Source: a virus
Strand: one strand, 5' to 3'
Length of the DNA stretch: 47,155 nucleotides
IMG/VR virus record: IMGVR_UViG_3300037847_006635
Span: 1 to 47,155 of that record
Shown piece after piece: positions 207 through 46,480 of this stretch. A program made the position numbers and the translations under genes. Position 1 is the stretch's first letter; the number at the start of each line of letters is the position of its first letter. Below the pieces are notes generated by a model. The model worked only from the letters and a program-made list of their open reading frames with translations. It was not told the origin of the DNA and did no database searches.

Positions 207-1059
207 TTTCTTCTATTGTTTGCCAAAATATTTCTGGCGATTGTTTACAAAGATTAGAAAAGGAATCATAATCTTTTGATTTAAATTCTTGAACGCTACC
301 TATTTTGCTTTCATCGCCTATAAATTCTAAACCACAAAGACAAGCCTCCGCAACCATTCTACAAAATGGTTCGTTAACAATTGGATTGTGATAAATATAT
401 TTATGGTTTTTGTAAACCTCTATAAGTTGTTCGTTAGATATTTTTTCGTTAAATTGTATATTGTTTATTTTTTTTATTTTGTCAATAGTGTTTTCATCTT
501 CAGCCCAACCATAAACTGATATTTGTCTATCTGGATTTAAGTTCGCAAAAGAAATTAAATTGTCCACACCTTTCAAAGGATGCAAAAAACCACAGTACAA
601 TATGTCATTTGATTGTGTTATATTTTTTTTGTTAAATAGTTTGGTATCTATTGGGTCATAAACTATTTTAACATTATCAAAATACTCACCATAATACTGC
701 TTAAAAAAAGAAATATGAAAGTCTGATAAAAAAAAATTTATTATACTGGAAGAAAAAAGCGATTTTCTTGCCTCCTCTGGTAAGTAATGACATGAATCGT
801 GTTCATATCTAACGTGTTTGGGGTGTGAGACTATTTTTTCAAACACAAAAGAAGCTTGATGACTACTTAATATGTGTTGTAAATTAGAGCTTATAATGAC
901 ATCGTAATTAGACAAAAATGTCATTGGAGAAGAGTTGTAATTATATGTGGTGATTTGATGGCCTCTATCAAGGCCAGCCTTAATCATAATATCATTACTA
1001 ATCTGGGCTCCACCGCTATTTTGCTCTATTGAAAAATCAGATATAAATAAAACATTCAC
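199..1059 (-). CDS. Glycosyltransferase, GT-B fold (family 4-like)
   Basis: This 286-residue protein looks like a compact GT-B glycosyltransferase. The N-terminal half starts MNVLFISDFSIEQNSGGAQ, with the glycine-rich acceptor-side loop. The C-terminal half has the donor-site pattern YCGFLHPLKGVDNLI and then NEPFCRMVAEACLCGLEFIG, the E-x7-E type motif of family 4. It would move a sugar from a nucleotide-sugar donor to an unknown acceptor. The start is GTG, because no ATG lies nearby in frame. A GAGGA sequence about 15 bases upstream, inside the end of the previous gene, could serve as ribosome site. It overlaps the partial family 2 gene by 8 bases. Phage glycosyltransferases may modify DNA, virion proteins or host surface glycans; nothing here decides which. 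Confidence 0.75.
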   Translation of the reverse strand: MNVLFISDFSIEQNSGGAQISNDIMIKAGLDRGHQITTYNYNSSPMTFLSNYDVIISSNLQHILSSHQASFVFEKIVSHPKHVRYEHDSCHYLPEEARKSLFSSSIINFFLSDFHISFFKQYYGEYFDNVKIVYDPIDTKLFNKKNITQSNDILYCGFLHPLKGVDNLISFANLNPDRQISVYGWAEDENTIDKIKKINNIQFNEKISNEQLIEVYKNHKYIYHNPIVNEPFCRMVAEACLCGLEFIGDESKIGSVQEFKSKDYDSFSNLCKQSPEIFWQTIEENA

Positions 1060-40530: not shown

Positions 40531-41502
40531 TTATTTTAATGGTTCAAGTATAGTAATGTCTCCTCTTACGACATCACCAGCTGATAATGATAAATTTTGT
40601 GCGGTGATAGTACCATCTATGTTACCACTTAGATGAGTAGTACCAAGAGAGTCTTTTAGTGCTAAATGAATAGCTCCTGGAGCATCTCCAGTCATTGGAA
40701 CGATTTTTCCTAAATTATCCCCTCTTATGCTTAAAGTTTGATTAGCTGTTATGTATTCTACTTCTGAAACACATAAACCTCCTAACTTGTAAATCGGTAA
40801 TCTATTTACTGAGTATTGATATCCAACAGTTTCAACTATATCTTGCTGTGCTATACTCACACCAGTTGCATGGGCTCCATTTGGATTTGAGTCGTTTCCG
40901 GCTCCTCCTTTTGTACGAGTACTAATAATTTCTGAATATGCTCCATGTGCTACTTTTTCTGGTGTTACATCTCTAGTTACTGGTTGAGGTCCAATACCGC
41001 CATGAACACCACTCGCGTGACCAGATCCTCCATGAGAAATATTGTTTGCCCTAATAGGATTATATATAGCAAAATCAGCTTGGATTTGAATAGGTGAGTA
41101 TGGTGCAACGCTATATGAGTAACTAGTTAAAAATGCGCCACTGCCACTAATACCACTAATGCTGTCACCTATTCTAAATGTTGCTCCTAGGTCACCAATA
41201 TCTCCAGTAAAACCTGTAGGATTAAATGTTGTGTCTCCATCTAAACCACCACCAAAATCATTTAAAAAACAAGAAAATGATAAAGTTTGATTGGGTGCGC
41301 CAGCTAAAGTAAAGCTATTTTTAGTTACGTTATCTCCAAGAAGTCTGGTTGGTGTTATATTAGGAGTATAGTTCAATGCTACCTGTGTAGCTAAGACTCC
41401 TGTTGCTCCATTACCGCCTATAGCTGCGAAGGTAGACGGTAGTGCACTTGTGTTGCTTCCCCCAAAATAAATTGGTACATCCCTATAACTTATATATGCC
41501 AT
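40531..41502 (-). CDS. Tail-tube-like paralogue, 323 residues
   Basis: A virion-type beta protein. Two halves show the tube-like pattern: VALNYTPNITPTRLLGDN then APNQTLSFSCFLND in the first, and VGYQYSVNRLPIYKLGG then ITANQTLSIRGDNLG in the second. A Gly/His-rich linker joins them. It is paralogous by eye to the proteins at 41525-42367, 23032-24264 and 8986-12084. It starts MAYISYRDVPIYFGGSN and has a GTGTAA element 9 bases from the ATG. It may form a collar, tail-tip ring or head fibre rather than the main tube, since the best tube candidate lies by the tape measure. Confidence 0.5.
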   Translation of the reverse strand: MAYISYRDVPIYFGGSNTSALPSTFAAIGGNGATGVLATQVALNYTPNITPTRLLGDNVTKNSFTLAGAPNQTLSFSCFLNDFGGGLDGDTTFNPTGFTGDIGDLGATFRIGDSISGISGSGAFLTSYSYSVAPYSPIQIQADFAIYNPIRANNISHGGSGHASGVHGGIGPQPVTRDVTPEKVAHGAYSEIISTRTKGGAGNDSNPNGAHATGVSIAQQDIVETVGYQYSVNRLPIYKLGGLCVSEVEYITANQTLSIRGDNLGKIVPMTGDAPGAIHLALKDSLGTTHLSGNIDGTITAQNLSLSAGDVVRGDITILEPLK

Positions 41503-41524: not shown

Positions 41525-42367
41525 TTAATCGTTAACTTTTTTATGTCCCTTATATTGTAAAGTAGCTGACATAGTTGATCCAACCTGTGTGTTTATAGAT
41601 TCACTTACTAAAGATGCGCCAGACATTGAATATCTATTTACAACATTGCCTGTGCTTCGCACTTCTAGTGCTATATCTCTATTAGTAACGTTATTAGAAG
41701 TAAATGCTCTATAATTATCTTCAAAAATATAATCCTCAGCTTCTATTTCAATAGTTGCTCTTTGAACAATTGGATCTAATAATTTTATCGATACTGGTGC
41801 TCCAGTTTGCCCTATAGCGTAATTAACTTGATAATTGTAAGCCTCTGAAAAAGTCATAGACTTTATTGCATTTAAACCATTGTCTATAGTTCCTGTTTTA
41901 TCGAATGTGACACTGATACCAGTTATTGGAATAATGTCCTTTGGGCTGTCTGCAGCAACATGTGCTAAAATATTTTCGCTTTCTCCTGTTAGGGCGTCAT
42001 AGATAGTAAAATCATATGAAATTTCTGGGATATCATTTGTTGAGGCAGATACTGAGAAACCATCTAATACGCCACTCTTAAATGACATTTTATTATCTCC
42101 ATATATCATTGCTCCAGAAAATCCAGTGGCTTCATTCTGAGCATTTGTAAATTTAACAAGACCCGTAATAAAATCTTGATTTAAAAGTAATTTGTTTACT
42201 TTAGCTGTAACTTTGGGAGCAGATATTGGATAGTGTCTATTATCGTCTGTTCCTATAAAAGATTGAGTGTTTTCCGGAGACGGAGCATCAAAGGATACAT
42301 CTTGTATACCATTGCATAATTTGCCATCTAAAATTAAATGTTCCGAAAAACTACCCGAATTTGCCAT
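41525..42367 (-). CDS. Tail-tube-like paralogue, 280 residues
   Basis: A beta-rich virion-type protein. First half: GIQDVSFDAPSPENTQSFIG followed by APKVTAKVNKLLLNQDF. Second half: YNYQVNYAIGQTGAPVSI and RATIEIEAEDY. The pattern matches the tail-tube protein, whose halves also pair a polar hairpin with an [AF]P-x-[VT]-x-[LAV] strand. It lies just downstream of the PEP-CTERM gene and upstream of a second tube-like gene. The ATG has a GTGTAA element 8 bases away that overlaps the stop of the PEP-CTERM gene. The role in the virion is open. Confidence 0.5.
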   Translation of the reverse strand: MANSGSFSEHLILDGKLCNGIQDVSFDAPSPENTQSFIGTDDNRHYPISAPKVTAKVNKLLLNQDFITGLVKFTNAQNEATGFSGAMIYGDNKMSFKSGVLDGFSVSASTNDIPEISYDFTIYDALTGESENILAHVAADSPKDIIPITGISVTFDKTGTIDNGLNAIKSMTFSEAYNYQVNYAIGQTGAPVSIKLLDPIVQRATIEIEAEDYIFEDNYRAFTSNNVTNRDIALEVRSTGNVVNRYSMSGASLVSESINTQVGSTMSATLQYKGHKKVND

Positions 42368-42375
42368 GTAAAGCT

Positions 42376-42381
42376 TTACAC
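42376..42381 (-). promoter_or_regulatory. GTGTAA element overlapping a stop codon
   Basis: Minus strand AATAAAGTGTAAAGCTTTAC ends at the ATG at 42367. The TAA in the element is the stop codon of the PEP-CTERM gene. The core is 8 bases from the start. Confidence 0.6.
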
Positions 42382-43062
42382 TTTATTTCGGTTTTTAATA
42401 GCTATGTATAAAAATGCTAAAAATCCTATCGCAATCGGATATGCAGAAGGCTCTGGTATGATGTCAATTGATACTGCACCTGGGCCAGTGATCATCATCC
42501 AACCATCTCCAGCAACTTTGGGATCATAAGTTGTGATAACAGCATAATACTCTGTATCTATTTCTAAATCATCTAATTCTAAAAAGAATAATAAATCACC
42601 ATCTTCTAATTCTCCTTCATATTCATCATGGTCATCGTTGTCAGCAAAGTACAAAGGGTCTGTTGGAGTCAAAGGATTAAATACATCATCATAAATGTAA
42701 ATCATTGTGTCTCTCATCCAAACTGGTGTGCCGTTAGGTAGTAAGGTTTCATTCCCTCCGAACTGTCTGTCTACACCGATATATTCTGCATTGAAAGATG
42801 TATTAAGTACTGAATAAGTGCCAAGAGTCTCAATACTAAATTTTGCTACATTGTAAAAGTATTCGTCATCATCATAACCCCAATCTTCTCCATCTGGTCT
42901 TGTATAACTCTGGTTTTTGGTCAAATCAAAACTTTGTAAAGTCATCCAAGTTAATTCTTGACTTAGATCTGGTAATTCTCCACCACCATCATCTGGCATG
43001 ATAGAAAGGGCTGATAAACTGGTGGCGGTAGCGAAAAGGAGAGTAGTAATTAGTTTTTTCAT
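42376..43062 (-). CDS. Exported protein with PEP-CTERM sorting signal
   Basis: A 228-residue protein with an N-terminal signal peptide (KKLITTLLFATATSLSALS) and, at 203-228, PEPSAY followed by a hydrophobic helix (PIAIGFLAFLYIAI) and a basic end (KNRNKV). This is the PEP-CTERM tripartite signal that exosortases cut and sort in Gram-negative, EPS-forming bacteria. The mature part is acidic. A segment with IYIYDDVF, YFADNDDHDEYEGE and DTEYYAVITTYDP looks like a calcium-type beta domain of the PPC/DVUA kind. Carriage by a phage is unusual and suggests that it acts on the host surface or EPS. The ATG overlaps the stop of the 55-residue membrane protein gene (ATGA). Confidence 0.8.
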   Translation of the reverse strand: MKKLITTLLFATATSLSALSIMPDDGGGELPDLSQELTWMTLQSFDLTKNQSYTRPDGEDWGYDDDEYFYNVAKFSIETLGTYSVLNTSFNAEYIGVDRQFGGNETLLPNGTPVWMRDTMIYIYDDVFNPLTPTDPLYFADNDDHDEYEGELEDGDLLFFLELDDLEIDTEYYAVITTYDPKVAGDGWMMITGPGAVSIDIIPEPSAYPIAIGFLAFLYIAIKNRNKV

Positions 43063-43226
43063 TTTTTTGCTTTCAAAAATTTCATGATTTCTTGTATGAA
43101 CCCGAAGAAGCCAGACTTCTTCTCACTTTTGGGCAAAATATGCAAAATCAAGCAGGTAATGCCAACAATTGACAGTGCCATCTTAAAAAGCTCTCCAGTA
43201 GATTTGTCTAAAATTTCAGATATCAT
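43059..43226 (-). CDS. Small single-span membrane protein, coupled to PEP-CTERM gene
   Basis: A 55-residue protein read directly from the sequence. It has a polar start (MISEILDKSTGELFK), one hydrophobic stretch MALSIVGITCLILHIL and a basic end (GFFGFIQEIMKFLKAKK). A GTGTAA element is 9 bases before its ATG, and its stop overlaps the PEP-CTERM start. It could be a holin-like protein, or a membrane partner of the exported protein. No endolysin is seen nearby, so a lysis role is not established. Confidence 0.55.
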   Translation of the reverse strand: MISEILDKSTGELFKMALSIVGITCLILHILPKSEKKSGFFGFIQEIMKFLKAKK

Positions 43227-43235
43227 ATTATTTAT

Positions 43236-43241
43236 TTACAC
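43236..43241 (-). promoter_or_regulatory. GTGTAA element, short spacing
   Basis: Minus strand AATTAAGTGTAAATAAATAA stands 9 bases before the ATG at 43226. It supports the 55-residue gene as real. Confidence 0.6.
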
Positions 43242-43245
43242 TTAA

Positions 43246-44511
43246 TTAATAGTGGGCATATCTAGTTTTTGATGCTAGGTCTAATTTATTTCTTTGTCCA
43301 CTAATTTGCAAACCCTCACTAATCAACAATTCTTTAAGCTTAAAGTTACCTACATAAGTTTGTTTTGATACGCCATTAAAACCTATACCATCAAAATTAT
43401 TTCTAAAAGGGTCATTTGGTTTATAGAAAAAATCAAAGGTATAATATTGCCCTATATTAATTTCTGTAATATAATGCTGTTCGTCTTCACCAGCTTGATA
43501 ATTTGTTAACTCTGTGTTATTTTGAAATGCTGTTGTTAAGTCGGTAGCGGCTCCATCCGCAGATATTTGATATGCAGTTCTTTCTCCGCATAGAAAAATA
43601 TAAGGCTGGTTGGAAGTTGCGTCAAAACCCCCTATAAGACCTTGAATTTCATTACCTCCACCTTGAGTTAAAGAAGCTACGGTTACAGATACACATTTAA
43701 GAGTAATGCTTTGATTTTCAAATAAAAGAGTTTGCATTGTTTGATTTACGTTCCGTGGTTGTATCTCACCATTATCTATTCTTATGTGATCAAATAAAAG
43801 TGACCCAGTATAAAATGTTGGGCCCAATGTTCCAGATTGTATACCCAAAGAAGATTTATCTCTACCAGTTGGAACCAAGTTATTATTTCCAAATTGATCA
43901 TACCATCTTAAAACCCTACCTCTCGCCGTTCCTGTAATATCTCCAGCATCTATCGCTGATTGATTCTTGTCCATCACTTCTCCAAGAGTATTATTAGGGA
44001 AATCGCTTTGACTAAATGTGTCATCTCCAAAATCTACAATGTCAACTATAGAGTCTCTACTAATCTCTCCACTTATGTCAAATCTAATATCATAAGTTAA
44101 ATGATCATCTAAAGTATTTCCCATAAATCCTCGTAACGCGTGTCCAGTATAATTGGGGTTTATTTTTTTATAAGAATATCCATGCTTTATTCCTGTTAAG
44201 CTAGTTAAAGGGTTTACGGCCGAACTATGAAAACCTGTGACTGTTTTGGGTTTAAACCCAGCATCAATTTCATCAGTCCGAACTGCTAGACCTAATTCAC
44301 TAGTAACACCATGATTATCGAGGTTTTTGTAGAGTTCTTTTATTGTTTTTTCTACTTGATGTAAGTGTTGTGAATTACTTAAATCATAAGTGCCACTTAA
44401 TCCTGTAATTTTATCACAAATGACTTTAAAATCATCAGATACTAATCCATTAGAAGACAAGGCAAACATATGGTGTATGTCCTTTTCTAAATTATGAATG
44501 TTTTCAGTCAT
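43246..44511 (-). CDS. ABFB/LamG-like adhesin, tail or head fibre candidate
   Basis: A 421-residue protein. After a helical N-terminus (EKDIHHMFALSSNGLVSD), it has YTGHALRGFMGN and the hallmark VLRWYDQFGNNN. This matches the alpha-L-arabinofuranosidase B / LamG-like carbohydrate-binding module (usually YTG-R and VTTWYDQSGNGN). The latter half is a beta sandwich ending in GNFKLKELLISEGLQ. Such modules bind surface sugars. The protein could be a receptor-binding or fibre protein, or capsid-surface adhesin. It overlaps the basic protein gene upstream by 4 bases. The same module is seen near the start of the 1433-residue tail protein. Confidence 0.6.
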   Translation of the reverse strand: MTENIHNLEKDIHHMFALSSNGLVSDDFKVICDKITGLSGTYDLSNSQHLHQVEKTIKELYKNLDNHGVTSELGLAVRTDEIDAGFKPKTVTGFHSSAVNPLTSLTGIKHGYSYKKINPNYTGHALRGFMGNTLDDHLTYDIRFDISGEISRDSIVDIVDFGDDTFSQSDFPNNTLGEVMDKNQSAIDAGDITGTARGRVLRWYDQFGNNNLVPTGRDKSSLGIQSGTLGPTFYTGSLLFDHIRIDNGEIQPRNVNQTMQTLLFENQSITLKCVSVTVASLTQGGGNEIQGLIGGFDATSNQPYIFLCGERTAYQISADGAATDLTTAFQNNTELTNYQAGEDEQHYITEINIGQYYTFDFFYKPNDPFRNNFDGIGFNGVSKQTYVGNFKLKELLISEGLQISGQRNKLDLASKTRYAHY

Positions 44512-45251
44512 GACTTAGTTCTCTTTTTTAGTTTTTCTAGATAAGCCTTGTAAATTTTGTTAGCGGAAGACAATCTTTTTTTAGTTTCGGGGTCTTTTGC
44601 ATTTTTTGCTGCGAATCTTGATCTTTGCTCCATTGCCATTGTAGCTTGTACTTTGTGCTTGTGTGGGCGTTTTGACTTTTCTATTATGTTAACGCTCTGA
44701 CGGGCTGTTTTTGCGTCTTTAAAGCCCAATCCCTTGATAGTTCCCTTTGGGTCTTCGTCTGTATATAAATCGGAGTGTTCTGATTTTGGTCTCTTTGTTC
44801 CGTCTTTCTTTTTTTCTGGTATTCTTTTATCTGCACCTTTTGCTAATTTTGTTAGTGTGCCGTAGTAAATAGCTTTACCGTCCTTTTCTCCGTATCTTTT
44901 TATAAAATCTTTCATTGGAATCTCTTTTTCCAATTTCATAAATTTTTCTTTTTGTTTTTTAGTTAGAGCCTCGGATTTGTAAGCGCCACCTCTTTTTTGC
45001 CTATCACAATATTGTTTTTGGCTAAAACCTTTTGGATTATTGCAATCAATATTTCTTTTGCGTTTTTGGCTCCATTTTTCTCCTTTTTTCTCTCCTTTAG
45101 CTCTTTCTATCTGTTCTTTCGTGGGTGCGCCCTTTTCTCCTGGTTTACGCATCCTTTCTTTGGAACCTCTCTTGATACGCTCCTTTTTACGCCTTATGTT
45201 TTCCCATAAACCGCGTCTTGCTAAAATTTGCTCTGTAAAATCTAATTCCAT
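44508..45251 (-). CDS. Basic virion-type protein with MELDFTEQI leader
   Basis: A 247-residue, very Lys/Arg-rich protein. It begins MELDFTEQILARRGLWENI; the first nine residues match the protein at 1245-2264 except one Ser/Thr. It has two blocks that recur, from memory, in marine phages and large algal viruses. One is KRNIDCNNPKGFSQKQYCDRQ near residue 65, and the other is SDLYTDEDPKGTIKGLGF followed by KVQATMAMEQRSRF near residue 160-215. The charge suggests DNA contact inside the head. It is joined to the previous stop (ATAATGG overlap) and to the next gene by 4 bases. The function is unknown. Confidence 0.6.
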   Translation of the reverse strand: MELDFTEQILARRGLWENIRRKKERIKRGSKERMRKPGEKGAPTKEQIERAKGEKKGEKWSQKRKRNIDCNNPKGFSQKQYCDRQKRGGAYKSEALTKKQKEKFMKLEKEIPMKDFIKRYGEKDGKAIYYGTLTKLAKGADKRIPEKKKDGTKRPKSEHSDLYTDEDPKGTIKGLGFKDAKTARQSVNIIEKSKRPHKHKVQATMAMEQRSRFAAKNAKDPETKKRLSSANKIYKAYLEKLKKRTKS

Positions 45252-46480
45252 TATCTTGTTGGTGATACTGATACTGGTGATACTGGTCTTATGCCAGGTT
45301 GATCTGGAAACGGTGTTTCTACTCTTGGTATGTCAAATCCTCCACCCTCGGTGCTTCCTACGTTTGAATGTGGCTTTATTTCGTCCATTTGTTCTATGCT
45401 ATCCATTCTTGGTTCTGGAGCAGATTCAGCTTGCGGTTCAGCTTGTGGTTCGGCTTGAGGCTCTGCCTTGGGTTCAGATTTGGGTTCTTCGGCTTGAGGT
45501 TCTGATTTTGGCTCAGATTTCTGTTCTTCAGCTTTTGGCTCTTGTTTTTGCTCTTCTTGCTTAGGTTCTTCTGATTTTTGTTCACTTTTTTGCTCTTCAG
45601 ACTTTTGTTCTGATTTTTGTTCAGATTTCTCTTCTTTTGCCTCTTCTGACTTTTGCTCAGACTTTTCTTCTGACTTAGCTTCGGATTTTTGCTCTTGTTT
45701 AGGTTCTTCGCTCTTTTGTTCGGATTTTTCCTCAGATTTAGCCTCTCTTTCAGCTTGTCGCTGTTCTTTAGCTTCTTGGCGCTCTGCTTGACGTTGTTCT
45801 TTAGCTTCTTGCTGTTCTGCCTCTGCTTCAGCCTGTGCTTCTGCTTTTGCTTCTTGTTCTGCTGCTTTTTGCTCTGCTTCTACTTCTTGTCTTTCTACAC
45901 GCTCTGCTTTGGTTTCCATGTTATCAGATACCTCATATAGGGATTCAGCGGTGCTTTCAACCACAGTATTTATAACTGGTATATTTTCAATGATTGGAAT
46001 ATGTGCTAGATCATCAATAAATGTGGCTGTGGTCTCAACAAAGTAATTTTGTAGGGTCATATCGTAATCTTCCTCTACTTCTTCAACAATTGCCACAATA
46101 TCGTGAGAAGACTCCACAACAGTCTCAGCTTGGAAATATGTGGCAGAACTAAGAGCTACACTACCAGCAGTACCTAAACTTTGCACATTTGTAATAATTT
46201 CTCCAGCATATTGCTGTACATTCTCTAAAACAGTAGGTTGTGCTTGGGTAGCTTGTGATGCGGCACTTTGAGCGGCTCCTTCGCCAGCTCCTCCAGAGTT
46301 TTGGGGGCTTTCACCAGATTCGTCCTCATCGTCCTCACCTTCATAACCCTTACCGCCCCCTTTTAATACTAGACGTACATCTTCCTTTAATCTTATTTCT
46401 TCTGCATTATATGGCGGCTCGCAAAATTTTTTTACTATTTCTTGTGCATCTTTGGGGTCAATGTTGTCTTTTTTTGCCAT
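45251..46480 (-). CDS. Acidic KSE-repeat protein
   Basis: A 409-residue protein of unusual composition. Residues 1-190 form an acidic domain with an N-terminal KDAQEIVKKFCEPPYNAEEI. Residues 190-260 are an Ala/Glu/Gln/Arg coiled coil (AEQEAKAEAQAEAEAEQQEA). Residues 245-370 are an array of short KSE-type units, KSEEKSEQKSEEPKQE and variants, ending in PQAE units. The C-terminus (HSNVGSTEGGGFDIPRVETP) looks like a normal short domain. The repeats are probably unstructured and extended, as in spacer or bridging proteins. It is the first gene of the minus-strand block, with a GTGTAA element 11 bases before the ATG. The function is unknown. Confidence 0.6.
   Translation of the reverse strand: MAKKDNIDPKDAQEIVKKFCEPPYNAEEIRLKEDVRLVLKGGGKGYEGEDDEDESGESPQNSGGAGEGAAQSAASQATQAQPTVLENVQQYAGEIITNVQSLGTAGSVALSSATYFQAETVVESSHDIVAIVEEVEEDYDMTLQNYFVETTATFIDDLAHIPIIENIPVINTVVESTAESLYEVSDNMETKAERVERQEVEAEQKAAEQEAKAEAQAEAEAEQQEAKEQRQAERQEAKEQRQAEREAKSEEKSEQKSEEPKQEQKSEAKSEEKSEQKSEEAKEEKSEQKSEQKSEEQKSEQKSEEPKQEEQKQEPKAEEQKSEPKSEPQAEEPKSEPKAEPQAEPQAEPQAESAPEPRMDSIEQMDEIKPHSNVGSTEGGGFDIPRVETPFPDQPGIRPVSPVSVSPTR
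45420..45900 (-). repeat. KSE/PQAE low-complexity coding repeat
   Basis: In-frame 9-18-base units encode KSEE, KSEQ, PKQE and later PQAE. They are irregular in order but use similar codons, as expected for slippage-grown repeats. Such repeats may vary in length between related phages. Confidence 0.7.

Follow-up and report, generated by a model that had tools for sequence, protein, structure and literature searches.

The window analyzed here, a 47,155-base stretch of DNA held as an IMG/VR virus record, encodes on its minus strand a small single-span membrane protein and, overlapping its stop codon, a larger protein with a predicted signal peptide at one end and a putative PEP-CTERM sorting tail at the other. 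The features of this pair and its surroundings are as follows.

43059 to 43226, minus strand: gene for the small membrane protein, 55 amino acids, single-span
42376 to 43062, minus strand: gene for the PEP-CTERM protein, 228 amino acids, with signal peptide, predicted beta-sandwich ectodomain, and putative PEP-CTERM tail
43059 to 43062, minus strand: ATGA overlap formed by the small-gene stop and the PEP-gene start (the −4 offset occurs in 45 of 69 relatives)
43003 to 43062, minus strand: signal peptide MKKLITTLLFATATSLSALS of the PEP protein, predicted from the sequence
42379 to 42456, minus strand: putative PEP-CTERM tail PEPSAYPIAIGFLAFLYIAIKNRNKV, with the PEP codons at 42448 to 42456 and a helix at residues 207 to 226 in the structure model
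43235 to 43243, minus strand: AAGTGTAAA element (GTGTAA) upstream of the small gene, part of a phage-wide set
45251 to 46480, minus strand: E/K/S-rich acidic protein; the cassettes inspected have a comparable acidic protein upstream of their small gene
44508 to 45251, minus strand: K/R-rich protein that, in the phage group of the window, lies with the acidic protein on one side and the small gene on the other

The original prediction for this locus had described the gene of a 55-residue membrane protein coupled by ATGA to that of a protein carrying a signal peptide and, at its C terminus, a PEP motif, helix, and basic tail, and each of these elements was present as claimed. In the larger protein, simple hydropathy places a signal-peptide-like hydrophobic core after MKK, and the C terminus runs from IPEPSAY through a hydrophobic helix into a basic tail. 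The small protein has an acidic N terminus, one hydrophobic helix starting at about residue 13, the sequence HILPK, and a basic amphipathic C terminus. Estimated dN/dS lay between 0.15 and 0.21 in the PEP gene; in the small gene, whose dS was saturated, it was about 0.05 or less.

Terminase, ribonucleotide reductase, sigma-factor, and tail genes were found in the window, and BLASTP matched 36 of its genes in a related 59-kb contig and 39 in a related 85-kb contig, with terminases 83% identical between the window and related phage contigs. The window is therefore a fragment of a tailed phage, in agreement with the phage origin originally proposed, and a cellular origin was rejected on the basis of the virus record and the syntenic phage relatives. 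The K/R-rich protein matches phrog_16028 and is 85% identical to its G012 homolog over 110 amino acids. A 421-amino-acid gene (43246 to 44511) separates the K/R-rich and small genes in the window and is absent from this position in L001, L002, and L015. On the other side, two tail-tube-like genes (40531 to 41502 and 41525 to 42367) adjoin the cassette; they share only about 31 to 36% identity with relatives that match the terminase at 83%, and so form a hypervariable structural pair.

The pair had also been proposed to be a separately regulated unit under its own GTGTAA element. This idea was abandoned, since GTGTAA occurred no more than 30 nucleotides upstream of 12 of 39 window genes compared to 0.18 expected, about 67-fold over chance, and was enriched in four related contigs too. 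Because the element is a general feature of the phage, a private promoter was rejected and the pair is, as far as is visible, not separately regulated. Motif starts lay mostly 14 to 17 or 25 to 28 nucleotides from the ATG, and GTGTAA may serve as a phage −10 element from which near-leaderless mRNAs arise. The gene starts at 2264, 2580, 26603, 41502, 42367, 43226, and 46480 are preceded by the element, and Shine-Dalgarno-like sites are few in this phage and its relatives.

A PEP-CTERM tail linked to the small protein

Published PEP-CTERM models (TIGR02595 and PF07589) gave no hmmscan match to the window protein, which was also without a match in Pfam, NCBIfam, PHROGs, or 50,697 phage records. 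A targeted search scored it at 11.5 bits (E = 0.029) against a cutoff of 20.7 bits, so the profile match that had been anticipated fell below the cutoff for the window protein itself. In its relatives, PF07589 matched the C terminus of the same gene in 14 further records, 5 of them above the cutoff, with a maximum of 24.7 bits. Because control genomes also produced weak matches at E values up to 10, none above the cutoff, the subthreshold matches alone prove little. A tail HMM built from relatives, leaving out the window and its two closest relatives, recovered the window protein with an E value of 1.2e-9 and no other significant open reading frame in the window. The Pro-Glu pair was invariant in 20 of 20 aligned tails, with Pro at the third position in 19, while the helix varied. 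Taken with the relatives' PF07589 matches, these alignments indicate that the predicted tail is a real PEP-CTERM tail, although its conservation could partly come from use as a recombination arm.

Linkage was assessed in three rounds of searching viral contigs, in which the small protein served as query in place of the PEP protein. Out of a total of 77 viral records recovered, the window included, 8 loci were cut by the contig end. In all 69 complete loci, without exception, the product of the next gene finished with PE followed by a hydrophobic segment and basic residues, and the motif read PEP in 60, PEL in 5, PES in 2, PEQ in 1, and PEV in 1. The same strict rule applied to 387 genes in five phage contigs picked only 6, all of them cassette genes. 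The 69 loci represent 43 distinct small proteins and 52 distinct PEP proteins, and they do not amount to 69 independent events, because the third-round query alignment was seeded from loci originally found through PEP proteins and because the records are related. The proposed coupling to a small membrane protein thus recurs throughout the homologous loci. Judging by sample numbers, the source samples are presumably mostly aquatic. Two variations on the arrangement were seen: some phages carry an extra 44- to 63-amino-acid single-span protein between the small and PEP genes (L063:3876-4013), and in one contig a second tail protein with VPES replacing PEP follows the first PEP-CTERM gene in tandem (L008:6793-7353).

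In several groups, the PEP gene is followed by a gene for a protein of 382 to 388 amino acids, modeled as an 18-strand outer-membrane barrel (mean pLDDT, 81.5) that resembles OccK porins (Foldseek E = 3.5e-10). The PE-tail gene preceded the barrel gene in 24 of 24 loci having upstream DNA. The barrel matches the putative beta-barrel porin family BBP2_2 (PF10082) weakly, at E values of 0.002 to 0.01, below the cutoff. The window's own group differs in having no barrel gene beside the cassette.

Ectodomain exchange and fold

Pairwise comparisons separated the history of the ectodomain from that of its neighbors. For example, L001 and L005 share small proteins that are 98% identical and ectodomains that are 25% identical, and L011 and L012 have identical small proteins (100%) with ectodomains at 30%, whereas L011 and L114 agree at 96% in the ectodomain, compared to 37% in the small protein and 46% in the barrel. 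Sliding DNA identity fell to background from just after the signal peptide until the PEP tail, with flanks at about 70 to 97%, and the reverse pattern, with identity high inside the ectodomain, was found for L007/L011 and L005/L038. Across eight cassettes, small-protein and barrel identities were correlated at 0.93 (Mantel P = 8e-4), while ectodomain identity correlated at 0.20 with the small protein and 0.23 with the barrel, neither being significant; the ectodomain therefore appears to travel independently. These sequence comparisons indicate that it is swapped as a cassette between the signal peptide and the PEP tail regardless of its neighbors, and it probably meets something outside the cassette.

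The structure model of the window PEP protein (mean pLDDT, 69; pTM, 0.63) contains a beta-sandwich ectodomain. Its best structural match was calpain domain III (Z = 9.2); the Tk-SP protease C-terminal domain and others ranked next, and Foldseek alone returned nothing under an E value of 0.001 for the ectodomain model. As modeled, the ectodomain is a calpain-III/PPC-like beta-sandwich, and its homologs in cells lie inside large proteins. A second, unrelated-looking ectodomain type is present in L005 and L038. The third form of the PEP protein, which accounts for 19 of the 52 distinct sequences, is only 81 to 105 amino acids long and has no recognizable signal peptide.

A search of 12 phage records turned up no exosortase, so the enzyme would have to come from the host. 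The PEP proteins, barrel, and small protein had no match among the 50,697 phage records, and none of the three matched a phage isolate or plasmid. In a sample of 398 Pseudomonadota genomes there were only domain-level ectodomain matches and one tail match; a match in Tistlia consotensis was judged to be chance, as it covered 37 residues of an acidic stretch in a genome without an exosortase. One cassette-bearing group and phage C75C1 have a structural protein in common (38%), but the corresponding position in C75C1 showed no cassette, and its record gives no host. A marine Verrucomicrobiota host came into consideration because of the tail's style and is not claimed.

Possible roles at the infected-cell surface

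In bacteria, PEP-CTERM proteins are exported, anchored, recognized by exosortases at the PEP motif, and released to the exterior (PMC12188702; PMC1569441). By the same route, the phage protein would be exported via its signal peptide and kept in the inner membrane through the helix at its C terminus, and a host exosortase would then recognize the PEP motif and release the protein to the cell surface, with the conserved small partner probably helping insertion or hand-over. The exchangeable ectodomain would act outward, its likeliest use being to change the infected-cell surface so that competing phages cannot adsorb. We lean toward this reading of the locus as a surface-display cassette, in which a host exosortase sorts the PEP protein and the small partner and outward-facing ectodomain play these parts. 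A broader version, with host-exosortase display aided by a small adaptor, some cassettes bringing their own barrel, and ectodomains swapped between phages in a surface arms race, has a chance just short of even. That the displayed proteins serve superinfection exclusion is, taken alone, less likely than not.

Phage envelope proteins known for superinfection exclusion include lambda Lom and N15 Cor, and many superinfection-exclusion proteins act early. The GTGTAA element is common to the cassette and structural genes, which suggests late expression of the cassette and counts against such a role. The exchange of ectodomains, on the other side, fits competition for the infected-cell surface, as in superinfection exclusion by T5 Llp (PMC9586334), a small phage-encoded envelope protein that, like the product proposed here, would alter that surface. 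The cassette differs from such proteins in its exosortase-tag route, variable ectodomains, and conserved partner gene, and the window PEP protein had no sequence relationship to known exclusion proteins in Pfam, NCBIfam, PHROGs, or the 50,697 phage records.

The protein might instead stay in the inner membrane with its PEP motif unprocessed, acting with the small protein to block DNA entry or tune lysis. The partner is a single-span protein of the inner-membrane type, short PEP proteins without a signal occur, and in L133 and L149 the cassettes have, immediately upstream, small multispan membrane proteins that look like holins. However, a Pfam search did not confirm holins next to these two cassettes, and simple anchoring needs no invariant Pro-Glu (20 of 20 tails; 69 of 69 genes), which leaves such a periplasmic block unlikely. 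Remodeling of the surface for adhesion, flocculation, or biofilm that favors phage spread, rather than exclusion, also seems improbable. Floc formation and exopolysaccharide binding have been linked to PEP-CTERM proteins (PMC9850573, PMC9012009, and PMC12188702), and the PPC-like domain is found in large cellular proteins, but lasting adhesion would be of little gain to lytic-looking phages, and an arms race fits the ectodomain exchange at least as well.

Abundant phage tails could also act as decoys that saturate or jam the exosortase, so that the surface loses host PEP-CTERM proteins, receptors possibly among them. The proteins of 81 to 105 amino acids, which keep the conserved tail with neither a signal peptide nor a sizable ectodomain, would suit a decoy, yet a decoy role would not account for the long ectodomains, swapped between phages, that 33 of the 52 distinct proteins have, which makes it very unlikely. 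Least credible is a virion protein, encoded within the structural block and carried by the particle; the tail-tube-like neighbors and common GTGTAA element would agree with it, but structural proteins of tailed phages do not usually have a signal peptide and a membrane tail.

The display cassette favored here shares with bacterial PEP-CTERM/exosortase (EpsH) cargo (TIGR02595 and PF07589; PMC1569441) a signal peptide, a diverse ectodomain, a near-C-terminal PEP, a helix, and a basic end. Unlike that cargo, it is phage encoded, is fixed to a dedicated small membrane protein, and has ectodomains swapped between phages; no exosortase gene turned up on the phage records. For the prophage sortase cargo SasX, we know of no partner gene or ectodomain exchange. 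SasX (LPXTG; phi-SPbeta-like, PMC6048232) is likewise a phage gene whose product bears a host surface-sorting tag, but it depends on a Gram-positive sortase and belongs to a temperate phage.

Descriptions of exosortase sorting have so far presented it as a system of bacteria, serving their surface and exopolysaccharide. No report of PEP-CTERM proteins in phages was found in the literature searched, most subscription papers lying outside it, and the proposed phage cassette for host surface display appears to be undescribed so far. The cargo tag is a constant part of a phage module of two to four genes that spans several divergent small-protein groups, and surface redecoration via host sorting machinery would thereby become a phage strategy open to testing. 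Probably many uncultured and apparently aquatic phages redecorate the infected cell with a PEP-tagged exchangeable protein. The cassettes would also serve as a marker by which uncultured phages could be tied to hosts that have an exosortase, and as a natural collection of display domains that can be interchanged.

Some other PEP-tailed genes were kept apart from the counts for this family. These are a different 110-amino-acid PEP-CTERM protein (VPEPSTYALFAGMIGLGYAVYRRKFLTK) present in five viral contigs of 30 to 73 kb (L040, L041, L049, L051, and L067) and GC-rich matches in L044, L047, L048, and L056. In L042, a viral contig with a GC content of 53%, a PEP-CTERM gene (around 366-388, minus strand) directly follows a GpA-like terminase gene.
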